33,643 bases of DNA from Thermofilaceae archaeon (GTDB taxonomy: Archaea > Thermoproteota > Thermoprotei > Thermofilales > Thermofilaceae). This document shows, piece after piece, positions 18,004 to 23,554 of the stretch; the first letter of the stretch is position 1; every line of letters starts with the position of its first letter. Location of the stretch: positions 1-33,643 of the forward strand of contig JAVYQJ010000013.1 of assembly GCA_038731975.1 (NCBI GenBank). Reading direction: 5' to 3'. Made by a program: the position numbers and the translations under genes. The notes beneath the pieces are model-generated. The model did no database searches, was not told the DNA's origin, and worked only from the letters and a program-made list of their open reading frames with translations.

Positions 18004-18505
18004 AGTGAAGGCTAGGGCGGATCCGGAAAACGTGCGAGAAAAGCTGGCGAAGCTCGGCGCCCGACTACTTGGGATCGAAACGCAGGAGGACATCTACTTC
18101 GAGCATCCATGCCGCAGCATGCTCGAGGTAGACGAGGCTCTCAGGCTACGCGTGGCAGAGGGGAGGGTTGAACTCACCTATAAGGGTCCTCGGTCGCATA
18201 GCCTGGCGAAGTCGAGGCTGGAGATCACAGTCGGGCTTGACGATGCGCAGGCCGCTAAACTCCTGCTTGAACAGCTGGGGTTCAGAGAGGCCGTAAAGGT
18301 GAGGAAGAGGCGGGAATCGTACGCGCTAGGCAGAATCACCGTGGCTCTCGATGAGGTAGAGGGGTTGGGCTTCTTCGTTGAGGTGGAAGGGGATAGCGAG
18401 AGCGAGGTGCTATCGATACTTTCTGAGCTCGGGGCTGTTGAGATCGTGAAGGAGACCTACGCGGAGCTAGCAGCCAAACTTCTGGCTCAGCGCCGCCCCT
18501 CCTAA
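17987..18505 (+). CDS. CYTH-domain protein (class IV adenylate cyclase/thiamine-triphosphatase family)
   Basis: A 172-residue CYTH protein. The N-terminal signature EIEVK (residues 4-8, ExExK) binds the triphosphate and metals. Later strands give LRLRVAEGRVELTYKGPR, RLEITVGL and VRKRRESYALGRITVALDEVEGLGFFVEVEG, the alternating Arg/Lys and Glu tunnel of the fold. Archaeal members are variously adenylate cyclases (CyaB), triphosphatases or phosphohydrolases, and substrate is not decidable from sequence. GTG 17987 lies inside the end of the membrane protein gene (17-bp overlap), with GAGGTGG at 17974-17980 as ribosome binding site. The two are therefore one transcript. Its 3' end overlaps the convergent HTH gene by 39 bp. 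Confidence 0.88.
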   Translation: MEVEIEVKARADPENVREKLAKLGARLLGIETQEDIYFEHPCRSMLEVDEALRLRVAEGRVELTYKGPRSHSLAKSRLEITVGLDDAQAAKLLLEQLGFREAVKVRKRRESYALGRITVALDEVEGLGFFVEVEGDSESEVLSILSELGAVEIVKETYAELAAKLLAQRRPS

Positions 18506-18838
18506 TTTCCCGCCTCTTACGATCTCCATGGCTCTGTCCAGGAGACCCCTGTCTCTCATCTCCCTACATAGGTCGCATATCGAGAGGTTCTCCCCCTTCT
18601 CCAGCTTCGCTACCGCCCCCTCGAGTAGGCTCCTCATCTCGGGCAGCTCATCGACCATCCTCCTGTACAACCCTCGCTCCATGTTAATGTAGCGGCTTAC
18701 AGCGCTCTGGCTAATGCCTACAAGCCTCGCTATATCCACCTGTCTCATCCTCTTTTCCGCGTACATGAAGGTTACCAATGCGCCCCTCAGCGCTGGTAGC
18801 ACGTACCTTACAAGCTCCTCACACGGCGCCCTAAGCAT
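18467..18838 (-). CDS. Archaeal XRE-like HTH regulator (COG2522-type) with CxxC
   Basis: A 123-residue DNA-binding regulator. An N-terminal block MLRAPCEELVRYVLPALRGALV precedes a helix-turn-helix (about residues 32-54, RQVDIARLVGISQSAVSRYI), exactly the order in the archaeal COG2522 family. A second half carries ICDLCREMRDRGLL, so Cys88 and Cys91 form CxxC; with Cys6 they could bind metal or an iron-sulfur cluster (inference). The ATG at 18838 has the TATA box AAATAAATAC (18859-18868) about 25 nt upstream, so it is probably leaderless. Target genes are unknown. Confidence 0.82.
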   Translation of the reverse strand: MLRAPCEELVRYVLPALRGALVTFMYAEKRMRQVDIARLVGISQSAVSRYINMERGLYRRMVDELPEMRSLLEGAVAKLEKGENLSICDLCREMRDRGLLDRAMEIVRGGKLGGAALSQKFGC

Positions 18839-19148: not shown

Positions 19149-19589
19149 CTAGGAGGTGAGGAGCTCGTGCACCAGCTGGGCTAAACGATCTTCAGCGATG
19201 CTTGCTGCCGCCTTGAGGGCCTCCTGCACGTGCCTCTCGAGTGCCTCTTCAACCCTGAACCCCATTCTCAAGTACCTTTTCGCTTGGAGAACCCGAGCCA
19301 GCTCATGGGAAAGCTTCACCAGGAGAGCCTCACGGTCCCCCGATTCCAGGTTCACCTGCAGCTCCTGAAGCTCCCCGCCCAGCTCGTGCGCTAGAACGAG
19401 CTTCAGCACCTTGCTCAAGTCGCAGCCGGCTGCCGTAGCGACTTTCACGGAGATCGCCAGCTCCTCGATGATGTGAGCAGCCCACGTTTCAAGAAGCTGC
19501 GGTGGGACGCCGTAATCGCTCCACTCGCAGACCACCCTACACCTAACCCTTTCAAGGAGCGCTACTAATCGACTTACAGGTGTTCCCAC
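19149..19589 (-). CDS. Degenerate HD-domain protein (YfbR-like)
   Basis: A 146-residue helical protein that looks like a YfbR-type HD phosphohydrolase whose metal site has changed. TWAAHIIEELAISVKVATAAG (30-50) is the first His helix. Helix 2 gives DLSKVLKLVLAHELGGEL (57-74), where the canonical His-Asp is His-Glu. REALLVKLSHELARVLQAKRYLRMGFRVEEAL (85-116) mirrors the LVKxADKLxxLLQAxEY segment with the metal Asp replaced (SHEL). Loss of both Asp residues suggests either altered metal use or a non-catalytic role. GTG 19589 has a minus-strand TATA box (CTTATAAG, 19611-19619) 22-30 nt upstream. Confidence 0.55.
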   Translation of the reverse strand: MGTPVSRLVALLERVRCRVVCEWSDYGVPPQLLETWAAHIIEELAISVKVATAAGCDLSKVLKLVLAHELGGELQELQVNLESGDREALLVKLSHELARVLQAKRYLRMGFRVEEALERHVQEALKAAASIAEDRLAQLVHELLTS

Positions 19590-19808
19590 GCGGGTACAGC
19601 GCGCAACCTCTCTTATAAGTTAGCCAGAAGCGGCAACGGTATGCACCACCACACAATATCCGATCCACTGGAGCTGTTTCTCTGCTAATTTGGAACCTCG
19701 TAACGGGAGTAGTGGCGCGATGTGGTGATTGGACACCGTGCGAATGAGGGAGCATGGGGGTGGTGCGGGGGCCGGGATTCGAACCCGGGCAGGCCTACGC
19801 CAGCGGAT

Positions 19809-19830
19809 ACCTTAGCACCCGTTCGAAGCC
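19809..19830 (-). other. tRNA-Leu intron 2, canonical position 37/38
   Basis: A 22-nt intron after nucleotide 37. Its TAAG pairs with the exon CTTA of the anticodon loop to make the four-base-pair central helix, flanked by AGG and GTA bulges that are cut after their second nucleotides. This is the standard archaeal splicing substrate. Confidence 0.85.
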
Positions 19831-19837
19831 CTTAAGT

Positions 19838-19855
19838 TTAGGCCTACGCGATAGA
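19838..19855 (-). other. tRNA-Leu intron 1, non-canonical position 30/31
   Basis: An 18-nt intron between nucleotides 30 and 31 in the anticodon stem. Its ends pair as CTA/TAG to form the inner helix of the bulge-helix-bulge motif. Removal converts a T-T clash at 31-39 into an A-T pair, completing the stem. Confidence 0.8.
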
Positions 19856-19911
19856 CCGCCCCCTTTGTCCTAGCTCGGGCACCCCCGCTGGTGAAAATAC
19901 GCTCTCCACGG

Positions 19912-19926: not shown

Positions 19927-20916
19927 CTACCTTAACGCCTCGTAGAAGAACTGTCGCGCGTCCCTCAGATTCACGATCCTCCTGACAAGCCCCCTTCTCT
20001 GCAGCTCCGATAGCGCCCTTCTCACAGTTCTCTCTGGCAGCATTGTTTCTTCCGCGAGCTCACGGGCACTCATCGGCCCTCTAAGCTCCAGCATCTTCAG
20101 CACGAACTTCGCGCTGGGCGGTACGTCGAGGGTTTCCGCGAGCTTTTCCCTCAGGGTTTCGCGAACGGAAGGCTTCGAGAAGAGCCTCACTATCCGTACG
20201 TCGGTTTCAGCCCGCGCGACCGTAACCCTTTCCCTCACTCTAACCCTAATCCCTCCGTCGGCGACGATCTCGCACGGGTACTTACTTGCAATGCCGCGAA
20301 CTTCAACGGTCGAGGTATCGGGTATCACTAGCGGGCGCTTCGCTACATCGACGCTATTTACGGGAACCACTTCGAGGACTCGAGCCCCCTCGAACACGAT
20401 GGCTCCTCCAGCTGAGAGGGCATAAGCGGTTGAGCCGAGAGGGGTCGCTATGATCACTCCGTCGGCTCTATCGCTCCAGACCGGTTCACCATCGATTAGG
20501 AGCTCGTAACTCATGAGGGCTGCGCTTTTAGAGGGGAACACGGCGATCTCGTTGAGCGCGTACACAACCAGAGAGCCGTCAACGACGCCCTTCAGCTTGG
20601 TGTACGTAGCCAGCTCATACTCCCCGCGGACGACAGCCTCGAGAGCGACGCCCAGCTCCTCCACGCTAATGGAGGTCAGGTAACCGGCCCCACCTGTGCT
20701 TACGCCAAGGATCGGCAAGTCCCTCTCGCCAACCGCTTGGACCGCGTCGAGAACGCACCTGTCGTCGCCCAAGGCTATGACCAGGTCAGCCTCGCCAACG
20801 TTATCGACCTCGCGCAAGCCGTGGAGCGCTAGCAGCTTCCTTGCCTCCTCAACTTCCTCAAAGTGGCTGTTAATCACCACGAAGACCCTCAGCGGCAAAC
20901 CTTGTTCACCCCCCAC
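19927..20916 (-). CDS. NAD kinase-like domain fused to a C-terminal winged helix
   Basis: A 329-residue two-domain protein. Residues 10-250 are an ATP-NAD kinase-like domain: GVSTGGAGYLTSI (71-83), ALNEIAVF (120-127) and DGVIIATPLGSTAYALSAGG (152-171) are all standard NadK motifs. The catalytic GGDG-T/L loop is changed to LGDDRCVL (49-56); the Asp is kept, but the second Gly, the fourth Gly and the Thr are not. Residues 266-329 form a winged helix (SARELAEETMLPERTVRRALSELQRRGLVRRI). The gene is divergent from nadA-nadC-nadX with 66 bp between, so it may sense NAD(P) and regulate that operon, or be a working NAD kinase with a DNA-binding tail. GTG 20916 is taken as start; TTG 20898 is possible. 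No other NAD kinase is in the window. Confidence 0.85.
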   Translation of the reverse strand: MGGEQGLPLRVFVVINSHFEEVEEARKLLALHGLREVDNVGEADLVIALGDDRCVLDAVQAVGERDLPILGVSTGGAGYLTSISVEELGVALEAVVRGEYELATYTKLKGVVDGSLVVYALNEIAVFPSKSAALMSYELLIDGEPVWSDRADGVIIATPLGSTAYALSAGGAIVFEGARVLEVVPVNSVDVAKRPLVIPDTSTVEVRGIASKYPCEIVADGGIRVRVRERVTVARAETDVRIVRLFSKPSVRETLREKLAETLDVPPSAKFVLKMLELRGPMSARELAEETMLPERTVRRALSELQRRGLVRRIVNLRDARQFFYEALR

Positions 20917-20982
20917 CCGTCGTACCTGACATATTTGCCGGTAAAACCCCCCTTAAAAAGCCGAATGCAAGGGCTTGCTCCG
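20917..20982. promoter_or_regulatory. Divergent promoter region of NadK-HTH and nadA
   Basis: This 66-bp gap holds the nadA TATA box (CTTAAAAAG, about 20952-20960) 23-31 nt before the ATG at 20983, hence a leaderless nadA. A CAAATATG element on the minus strand at about 20930-20937 is the likely TATA region for the opposite gene. Between them lies CGGTAAAACC (20939-20948). The same ten bases recur at 24735-24744 in the divergent promoter region at the far end of the NAD cluster. One protein bound here could control both directions. Confidence 0.5.
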
Positions 20983-21909
20983 ATGGTCTCGATCGAGGAG
21001 ATCAGGAGGCTGATGGACGAGAAGAAGGCCGTGCTCCTGGCGCACAACTACCAGCGCCCTGAGGTTCAGGATGCAGCGGACTTCGTCGGCGACAGCCTAG
21101 AGCTCTCCCTGAAAGCTGCAGAGCTTGAAGCGAAAACCGTCGTGTTCGCGGGCGTCGACTTCATGGCGGAGCAGGCTGCCATCCTAAACCCCGGAAAGGT
21201 GGTACTACACCCCGAGCGGCTGGCGAGGTGCCCCATGGCCGCCATGCTGACCTTAGAGCTCGCGAAAGAGTACAAGGAGAAGTACCCGGGAGTCCCCTTT
21301 GTCGTCTACGTCAACAGTTGGGCGGAGGTTAAGGCTTTAGCGGACTACGTGGTTACGAGTGCCAACGCCGTTAAGCTCGTTTCCCAGCTTGAGGCGGATA
21401 GGGTGCTCTTCGGCCCCGACAGGCACCTCGCGGAGTACGTCGCTGAAGCAACAGGGAAGGAGGTGATACCCGTGCCGAGCGATGGGCACTGCCCGGTCCA
21501 CTTGGCCATTACGCGGGAGGAAGTTGAGGGCGCGAGGAAGAGGTATCCGGCAGCAAAGGTGCTGGCCCACCCCGAGTGCGTCCGAGAGGTTCGCCGCTTG
21601 GCCGATTTTGTCGGAAGCACGAGTCAGATGATTAGGGCGGCATCCGAGCTGGGAGCGAGGGAGTACGTAGTGGCAACCGAAGTGGGTTTGCTCCACCGGC
21701 TGGAGAAGCTGGGTTTCAAAGCTCATCCCGCAAGCAGCTATGCGGTCTGCGTCGAAATGAAGAAGATAACCCTGAGCAGCATCCTGAGTAGCCTAGTAAA
21801 CGGCAGAAACGTTGTGAAGGTTGACGCGAAGGTCGCTCGACGGGCTCGAGAAGCTATAGGTAGGACGTTCGAGCTGCTGGGGGTGCCCCCACCATGGTCG
21901 AGGAGCTAA
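20983..21909 (+). CDS. nadA: Quinolinate synthase NadA
   Basis: A 308-residue enzyme that condenses iminoaspartate with dihydroxyacetone phosphate to quinolinate, the first dedicated ring of NAD. Iron-sulfur ligands Cys83 (ARCPMAAM), Cys170 (DGHCPVHLAI) and Cys256 (YAVCVEMKKITL) match the three known ligand positions of thermophile NadA. HNYQ (21-24), DSLELS (37-42) and HPEC (196-199) are further conserved motifs. I chose ATG 20983 because the TATA box lies about 27 nt before it; the in-frame ATG at 20965 is too close to that element. The first gene of nadA-nadC-nadX, overlapping nadC by 16 bp. Confidence 0.95.
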   Translation: MVSIEEIRRLMDEKKAVLLAHNYQRPEVQDAADFVGDSLELSLKAAELEAKTVVFAGVDFMAEQAAILNPGKVVLHPERLARCPMAAMLTLELAKEYKEKYPGVPFVVYVNSWAEVKALADYVVTSANAVKLVSQLEADRVLFGPDRHLAEYVAEATGKEVIPVPSDGHCPVHLAITREEVEGARKRYPAAKVLAHPECVREVRRLADFVGSTSQMIRAASELGAREYVVATEVGLLHRLEKLGFKAHPASSYAVCVEMKKITLSSILSSLVNGRNVVKVDAKVARRAREAIGRTFELLGVPPPWSRS

Positions 21910-22751
21910 TCCACCAGAAGATGCTCGAGTGGCTGGCTGAGGATATTCCGTTCTGGGATGCCACGGCTAGGCTCATTCCAGAGGGCTGCAAGTGCAGGGC
22001 TGTCGTTACCGCGAAGGAGCGCGGCGTAGCCGCCTGCGTGGAAGAGGTGGCCGGCTTCCTGAAGCGGTTAGGCTTCAACGTGCGGGCCAACGTAGCGAGC
22101 GGTGACGAGTTCCAGAAGGGTAGCGCACTGCTGGAGATCGAAGGTGACTTGAGGAAGCTGCTCCAGGTGGAGAGGCTCGTACTCAACATCCTCTCGCACG
22201 CCTGCGGGGTGGCCACCGCGACGCGGGAGGCCGTGAGGCTAGCCAAGGCGGTCAACCCCAACGTAAGAGTTGCTGCCACGAGGAAGACGCTCCCTGGTCT
22301 CCGCTACTTCGAGAAGAGAGCCGTCGAAGCGGGCGGCGGCGACCCCCACAGGCTCTCTCTCAGCGACATGATCTTGATCAAGGACAACCACCTCAGGTAC
22401 TTCGGCTCAGTGGAGGCGGCTGTGAGGGCTGCGAAGAGGGCTGCCAGCTTCACCACCAAGGTCGAGGTGGAGGTCTCGAGCCCGGAGGAGGCGCTTGAGG
22501 CTGCTCGAGCCGGTGCGGACATCATCATGCTCGACAACTTCACCCCAGAGGAGGTGGAGGAGGCGATAAGGCTCCTCGAACGCTCCGGGCTGAGGGGCAA
22601 AGTTGTCGTAGAGGTCTCCGGAGGGATTAACCTCGAAAACCTTGCAGCGTACGCGAGGGCGGGGCCCGACGTGATCAGCATGGGCTGGCTCACGCACTCG
22701 GCGAAAGCGATCGACATGTCTCTCGAGGTCGTGGAGGTGGTCAAGCCGTGA
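21894..22751 (+). CDS. nadC: Quinolinate phosphoribosyltransferase NadC
   Basis: A 285-residue enzyme that converts quinolinate and PRPP to nicotinate mononucleotide, CO2 and pyrophosphate. Family blocks in order: ILSHACGVATAT (about 101-112), VAATRKTLPGLRYFEKRAVEAGGGDPHR (about 124-151) with the substrate-binding Arg and Lys, SDMILIKDNH (about 155-164), DIIMLDNF (about 207-214) and VVEVSGGIN (about 239-247). Length is normal. ATG 21894 lies within the nadA end, and nadX overlaps its stop, so the three are translationally coupled. Confidence 0.95.
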   Translation: MVEELIHQKMLEWLAEDIPFWDATARLIPEGCKCRAVVTAKERGVAACVEEVAGFLKRLGFNVRANVASGDEFQKGSALLEIEGDLRKLLQVERLVLNILSHACGVATATREAVRLAKAVNPNVRVAATRKTLPGLRYFEKRAVEAGGGDPHRLSLSDMILIKDNHLRYFGSVEAAVRAAKRAASFTTKVEVEVSSPEEALEAARAGADIIMLDNFTPEEVEEAIRLLERSGLRGKVVVEVSGGINLENLAAYARAGPDVISMGWLTHSAKAIDMSLEVVEVVKP

Positions 22752-23554
22752 AGGGGGTCTCCCTGATAGGGTGCGGGGCGATAGGCGGCGTGATCGCCAG
22801 GGCTATCGATTCCGGGCTGGTCAACGCGGAGCTGCGCTACCTGTTGGACGCCGATCGCGCGAGAGCGGAAGGCCTCGCTCGCAGCTTAACGAGGCAGAGG
22901 CCCAAGATCGCTGCGGGCGTGGAAGAAATCGCCGCTGACCCCTTAACGCAGGTGGTCGTGGAGGCGGCGAGCCAGGATGCCGTGCTCCACTACGGGCGGC
23001 GGCTGCTCGAGGCAGGTAAGGAGCTAGTTGTGCTGAGCGTGGGTGCGCTGCTAAGGCCGGAGGCCAAGCCAATCCTAGAGCACTTCGGCAGCAGAGTCCA
23101 CGTCCCCGCGGGAGCTATCGCTGGACTGGATGCGGTGAAAGCGATGGCGCTCGCCGGGATCGATGAGGTCTTCCTCGTGAGCCGCAAGCACCCCGCCAAG
23201 CTCGCCGATGAACCCTACGCGAGGGAGAAAGGAATGAGGCTGGAGGGCTTAGAGGAGCCTCTCGTGGTCTTCGAGGGCACAGCGGAGGAGGCGGTCAAGT
23301 GTTTCCCCAGGACTCTGAACGTAGCTGCAGCCCTATCGCTGTGCGCGCGTGCTCCGGTGCGAGTCAGAGTTGTGGCCGATCCGAGAGCGGATCGCAATGT
23401 GCACGAGGTACTCGTGAAGTCGAAGGCCGGAACCCTCTACGTTAGGGTGGAGAACGTACCCCACCCCAGCAACCCGAAGACGAGCTACCTAGCCGCTCTC
23501 TCGGCCGTCGAGCTGCTGAGGGAGCTTTGCTCTAGGCCCTCCCCAGCCGTCTGA
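22748..23554 (+). CDS. nadX: L-aspartate dehydrogenase NadX
   Basis: A 268-residue NAD(P)-dependent enzyme that oxidises aspartate to iminoaspartate, feeding NadA directly. The N-terminal Rossmann motif is IGCGAIGGVIA (7-17). EAASQDAVLHYG (about 73-84) is the family's active-site loop. PAGAIAGLDAVKAMA (about 120-134), VSRKHP (about 143-148), CFPRTLNVAAALSL and DRNVHEV (catalytic His region) follow. Choice of NadX rather than the flavoprotein oxidase NadB suits an anaerobe. The GTG start overlaps the nadC stop (GTGA). The 3' end overlaps the convergent alcohol dehydrogenase by 23 bp. Confidence 0.93.
   Translation: MKGVSLIGCGAIGGVIARAIDSGLVNAELRYLLDADRARAEGLARSLTRQRPKIAAGVEEIAADPLTQVVVEAASQDAVLHYGRRLLEAGKELVVLSVGALLRPEAKPILEHFGSRVHVPAGAIAGLDAVKAMALAGIDEVFLVSRKHPAKLADEPYAREKGMRLEGLEEPLVVFEGTAEEAVKCFPRTLNVAAALSLCARAPVRVRVVADPRADRNVHEVLVKSKAGTLYVRVENVPHPSNPKTSYLAALSAVELLRELCSRPSPAV

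Follow-up and report, generated by a model that had tools for sequence, protein, structure and literature searches.

A NAD kinase-like protein fused to a winged helix, a likely regulator of NAD synthesis in Thermoproteota and Asgard archaea

Beside the NAD synthesis genes of a Thermofilaceae archaeon lies a gene that joins a NAD kinase (NADK) fold to a C-terminal winged helix-turn-helix (wHTH). This fusion is likely an NADK-derived, probably noncatalytic, NAD(P)-sensing transcription factor that controls NAD synthesis or uptake and often its own gene. The architecture, its conservation, a change in a signature loop, the gene context, and an operator shared at nad promoters are shown here, while binding to that operator, the identity of the ligand, and the loss of kinase activity are inferred. 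The window referred to throughout is the whole stretch of DNA analyzed, 33,643 nucleotides of contig JAVYQJ010000013.1 (assembly GCA_038731975.1).

An NAD kinase fold with an altered loop and a winged helix

The fusion gene occupies positions 19927 to 20898 of the minus strand and encodes 323 amino acids from a TTG start at 20898. An alternative GTG start at 20916 would give 329 amino acids, but TTG is favored because relatives, which have ATG at this codon, start M-P-L at the same point. Pfam matches on the protein are NAD_kinase_C (1.1e-22), NAD_kinase (2.9e-12), and the MarR_2 wHTH (1.1e-7, residues 263 to 321), with a TrmB match also covering the C-terminal tail; none of the NCBIfam NAD kinase equivalogs reaches its cut-off. 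The sensor-like domain, approximately residues 1 to 240 (20179 to 20898, minus strand), is delimited by Pfam PF01513/PF20143, by PDB sequence matches to NAD kinases, and by Foldseek. An AlphaFold2 model computed from a 25-row alignment of fusions has a mean pLDDT of 90 and places an NADK fold ahead of the wHTH. The best Foldseek matches to its N-terminal part are the NAD kinases 7mh7/7qvs (E of about 2e-26), and the fusion thus qualifies as an NADK fold both by Pfam and by AlphaFold2 with Foldseek.

The wHTH spans approximately residues 258 to 323 (19930 to 20127, minus strand), with the recognition helix LPERTVRRALSEL. Its modeled helices cover residues 261 to 273, 278 to 285, and 289 to 301, and the wing strands cover residues 305 to 309 and 317 to 321. 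Across 76 fusions, one Arg of the recognition helix is invariant (76/76) and a second is present in 70/76. Pfam, the model, and the Arg conservation show that the tail is a winged helix with a basic recognition helix; that the protein binds DNA through it is an inference.

The sensor domain is changed in the GGDG loop of NAD kinases, which reads GDDR in the window (20758 to 20769, minus strand), with the Asp kept, the second residue changed, and the fourth now Arg. One of the 76 fusions is truncated at the loop; the 75 that cover it all read GxDx and none reads GGDG, whereas GGDG is found in all 63 stand-alone NADKs covering the loop. The Gly and Asp of the fusion loop are invariant, and the fourth residue is R in 47, K in 18, S in 6, G in 3, and C in 1, so that Arg or Lys closes the loop in 65/75. 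A canonical P-H region (Pro in 50/64, His in 38/64) is likewise replaced by N-S (75/76 and 74/76, respectively). The residues of the NAD pocket are kept, namely, the N of NE/D, DG, and the GS and Y of GSTAY, each in 76/76, and the window fusion has the NE, DG, TPLGSTAY, and SAGG motifs. This pattern is compatible with a domain that preserves a dinucleotide pocket while its handling of ATP and phosphate is altered, although loss of kinase activity is inferred without an assay, and residual activity is not excluded because the GGDG Asp is retained. As a guess, the Arg or Lys replacing the last Gly may recognize the 2'-phosphate of NADP(H).

These results bear on an earlier note made from the sequence alone, which had claimed NadK motifs, an altered GGDG loop, and a C-terminal winged helix. 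All three held, with the retained Asp as a refinement of the second, and the basic recognition residues on which the DNA-binding claim depended are present in homologues.

Could the protein be a bifunctional enzyme-regulator, whose domain still phosphorylates NAD while it also regulates? In favor, the loop Asp, NE, DG, and GSTAY are invariant or nearly so, and there is a reported archaeal precedent in RbkR (PMC8305020). Against it stand the loop counts for GGDG (0/75 fusions versus 63/63 stand-alone NADKs), the exchange of P-H for N-S, and a separate canonical NADK in nearly all fusion-bearing genomes. In the window's own genome (95% complete), such an enzyme, stand-alone and with GGDG, is encoded on contig 25. 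Many of 60 relatives carry the fusion, nearly all of them together with the canonical enzyme, G006 being the only fusion-carrying relative with a single NADK-type match. We regard the bifunctional reading as unlikely and prefer a sensor without efficient catalysis.

Thermoproteota and Asgard archaea both retain the two-domain architecture, often encoded next to nad genes. It recurs in many families across 398 Thermoproteota genomes; f17, f52, and f54 are families that we take to be ammonia-oxidizer-like and f32 one that we take to be Sulfolobaceae-like, these labels being inferred. Carriers include a Nitrososphaeraceae metagenome-assembled genome (MAG) (L116) and a Thorarchaeota MAG (L117). 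A pattern search of genome contigs returned mostly bacterial NADKs, because the pattern hit only the shared GSTAY motif. In the phylum of the Thorarchaeota genome, 39/119 genomes have strong matches, 37 of which extend into the winged helix. A tree of 72 NADK domains, built with the loop columns masked, groups all 41 fusions together behind a single branch with an SH-aLRT of 99. The fusions are one clade spanning Thermoproteota and Asgard archaea.

Gene context and the link to nadA

In the window, the fusion is divergent from nadA (quinolinate synthase; 20983 to 21909, plus strand; Pfam NadA, 2e-104), nadC (quinolinate phosphoribosyltransferase; 21894 to 22751, plus strand), and nadX (L-aspartate dehydrogenase; 22748 to 23554, plus strand), the last two identified by Pfam and NCBIfam and all three well above Pfam cut-offs. 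The divergent arrangement had been claimed earlier and held, but the accompanying gap of 66 bp applies only to the GTG start (20916 to the ATG at 20983) and becomes 84 bp with the conserved TTG.

The same divergent pairing is seen in f1, f5, f16, f20, f55, one f9 genome, and Thorarchaeota, while in three other f9 genomes the fusion lies directly upstream of nadA in the same direction. Among Asgard loci, nadA is divergent from the fusion in 23/30, and in some of the remaining 7 the contig ends within the locus or the flanking sequence is short. We reject chance adjacency of the two genes, since the pairing recurs in many families as well as in Asgard archaea. Across 61 genomes, 24 have both genes, 13 only the fusion, 2 only nadA, and 22 neither (p = 1e-5); the Fisher p-values given here are optimistic, since they take no account of kinship between the genomes. 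The two genes also decay together in two lineages, as G034 (L063) has a nadA relic and a fusion with an internal stop, and G015 (L057) has a truncated fusion and nadX and is missing nadA and nadC.

nadA is absent from 13/37 fusion-bearing relatives. At loci lacking an adjacent nadA, the divergent neighbor of the fusion is an MFS transporter of the aromatic-acid symporter type in f8, f9, and f40 and an APC permease in f32. Uptake of niacin by the MFS transporter is plausible.

Other neighbors were also recorded. Downstream of the window fusion, an open reading frame of 146 amino acids without a Pfam match (19149 to 19589, minus strand) is 44 to 48% conserved beside the fusion in the closest relatives (L033 to L037). 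A tRNA-like gene with a TTCGAACCC T-loop and a possible intron, not called by ARAGORN, lies at about 19766 to 19865 (minus strand). A small HTH_3 protein of 123 amino acids (18467 to 18838, minus strand) is conserved near the fusion in close relatives and is a possible further regulator. In genus g24 (L058, L059, L060, L232, and L233), the fusion adjoins purB (adenylosuccinate lyase), usually divergently. In the ammonia-oxidizer-like loci L201 to L203, L209, L210, L116, and L230, a PfkB-family kinase gene lies directly upstream of the fusion, with pyrG convergent.

A palindrome shared at nad promoters

Inspection of intergenic regions had revealed a recurring dyad. To define a candidate operator, every dyad with 5-bp arms and a spacer of 0 to 12 bp (13,312 in total) was enumerated over 28 regions. 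The 13-bp palindrome GGCAA-N3-TTGCC, written out as the consensus site GGCAATTATTGCC, ranked first, occurring within one mismatch in 14/28 regions, compared with 5 for the best of any dyad in 12 shuffles. As 8 of the 28 were nadA regions hand-picked after inspection, the test was repeated on all nadA loci. Scores of at least 9/10 are found at 22/40 nadA upstream regions of fusion-bearing genomes versus 0/632 other upstream regions (p = 1e-30). At least 2 of these 22 (L093 and L110) match in or over neighboring coding sequence and may be false.

Further support comes from 10 ammonia-oxidizer-like genomes that had no part in defining the motif and in which the fusion lies away from nadA. All 10 have a palindrome upstream of nadA, at -80 to -98, that scores 8 to 10 of 10, and seven of these sites are perfect. 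In one of these genomes, G159, the fusion and nadA are about 290 kb apart. Perfect palindromes number only 2 in the whole genome of G159, 1 in G342, and 6 in G395, and the nadA promoter is among them each time. The Asgard loci, fetched last as a replication, have a perfect intergenic palindrome in 14/23 nadA-adjacent cases, with variable spacer bases and, in most of the 14, a second copy 29 bp off. In f20 genomes, TTGCC half-sites are 30 bp apart.

In the window itself, the sites are degenerate. Putative operator O1, TGACATATTTGCC (20927 to 20939, no strand assigned), matches GGCAA-N3-TTGCC at 7/10, and its TTGCCGG is invariant across the 7 closest loci. Putative operator O2, GGCAAACCTTGTT (20894 to 20906, no strand assigned), matches at 8/10 and overlaps the fusion start codon; a counterpart 32 to 33 bp from O1 is present in 7/7 of the closest loci, but one arm partly coincides with coding sequence, and this conservation may be partly coding. 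O1 ends 12 bp upstream of a TATA-like box, CTTAAAAAG (20952 to 20960, plus strand), which is about 30 bp upstream of the ATG at 20983, a spacing consistent with an inferred leaderless nadA mRNA. The position of O1 is compatible with activation or with repression, and the direction is unsettled. Relatives do not conserve a 21-bp TACC...GGTA palindrome (20923 to 20943), the site first suspected, and the 13-bp dyad took its place.

Two rivals meet this evidence. In the first, the wHTH serves only as a structural element or a contact for other proteins, and the palindrome belongs to another regulator. Direct binding evidence is indeed absent, and G044 breaks the pattern, having a related palindrome at nadA and no detected fusion. 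Against this are the recognition-helix Arg residues (76/76 and 70/76), the presence of the palindrome at the promoters of divergent fusion and transporter genes where the genome lacks nadA, and its absence from the nadA of G060, which lacks the fusion. We consider this reading very unlikely. In the second, the protein regulates nothing and is an ordinary second NAD kinase, kept near nad genes by their common function in supplying NAD(P). Its homology to NADKs and its place next to the pathway genes speak for this reading; the loss of GGDG in every fusion, the conserved wHTH, a placement that is divergent rather than operonic in most loci, and an operator shared even with nadA located in trans speak against it. 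The ordinary paralogue was rejected on the universal loop loss, the wHTH, and the operator and is all but excluded. A regulator acting through GGCAA-N3-TTGCC remains the preferred reading.

Not every occurrence of the palindrome fits a regulon. Of twelve perfect palindromes inspected elsewhere, about half lie inside, or away from, plausible targets and look like chance, and the one in the window's genome (C8:47636) has no identifiable nad gene beside it. In two f32 genomes without nadA (L264:3184-4443 and L265:3496-4761), a perfect GGCAATATTTGCC lies 81 to 86 bp upstream of a gene for a radical-SAM protein (NCBIfam variant_rSAM), possibly a further regulon member. Separately, the recognition helix of g24 fusions has E where other fusions have R, and in two g24 genomes, of which one has no detected fusion, the site at nadA is CGCAA-N3-TTGCG. 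A pairing of this substitution with the variant site is not claimed, as it rests on one or two genomes and has a counterexample in G361.

Proposed regulator and its relation to known systems

We propose that the protein is a transcription factor that arose by duplication of a NAD kinase. Because the dinucleotide pocket is kept but the GGDG signature is lost, the NADK domain would most likely bind NAD(H) or NADP(H) while transferring phosphoryl groups inefficiently or not at all. The C-terminal winged helix would bind GGCAA-N3-TTGCC, often as two copies 29 to 33 bp apart, next to the nadA(-nadC-nadX) promoter and, in many cases, that of the fusion gene, and NAD(P) in the pocket would change this binding. 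NAD kinases form tetramers, which paired sites at this spacing would suit. In the window, the protein would sit between two divergent promoters and adjust both NAD synthesis and the expression of its own gene to how much NAD(P) is present; in genomes without nadA, an uptake transporter would probably be controlled instead.

The earlier note had proposed an autoregulated, NAD(P)-responsive regulator. The regulator is supported, and the palindrome at nad promoters, including those of nadA far from the fusion, adds evidence, with binding and the NAD(P) response still inferred. Autoregulation held only in part: it is not universal, because the promoters of several fusions (many f13, f7, f10, and ammonia-oxidizer genes) lack a clear operator. 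A bolder reading, which we judge fairly likely, is that of an ancient factor family common to Thermoproteota and Asgard archaea, in which a repurposed NAD kinase senses NAD(P) and controls de novo NAD synthesis or precursor uptake via GGCAA-N3-TTGCC. If true, ammonia oxidizers, hyperthermophiles, and Asgard archaea would have an NAD regulator with a candidate operator, and the family would be a clear example of an enzyme converted to a sensor. Genes annotated as NAD kinase in these archaeal genomes may not encode kinases.

No description of an NADK-wHTH regulator, and no archaeal counterpart to the bacterial NAD regulators, was found in the open-access literature searched, most subscription papers being outside its scope. 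The closest enzymes are the NAD kinases themselves (PF01513/PF20143; Pseudomonas aeruginosa 7mh7/7qvs and Archaeoglobus fulgidus 1suw), which have the fold and the NE, DG, and GSTAY motifs in common with the fusion; the fusion differs in having mostly GxD[R/K] for GGDG, N-S for P-H, an extra C-terminal wHTH, and a separate clade. MarR- and TrmB-type winged helices share only the DNA-binding module, the rest of the fusion being the NADK domain.

The nearest parallel in kind is RbkR, an archaeal riboflavin kinase with an HTH that is reported as both an enzyme and a regulator of riboflavin genes (PMC8305020). Both proteins join a cofactor-pathway kinase to an HTH controlling the pathway, in archaea. 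They differ in pathway and kinase, no riboflavin kinase match being among the Pfam hits listed for the fusion, and in the HTH, which is N-terminal in RbkR and C-terminal in the fusion; RbkR is also said to keep its enzyme activity, unlike the role proposed here. In bacteria, the Nudix-related NrtR, NiaR, and NadR regulate NAD genes. NrtR and NadR also pair DNA binding with a domain resembling an enzyme (PMC6800001 and PMC7221760). No Nudix, NiaR, or NadR family domain is among the Pfam or NCBIfam hits listed for the fusion, whose sensor is instead an NADK fold and whose archaeal operator is GGCAA-N3-TTGCC. The principle of fusing a sensor derived from an enzyme to a DNA-binding domain is thus already known, and what is likely new here is the NADK fold in the role of a regulator's sensor, together with a new regulon.
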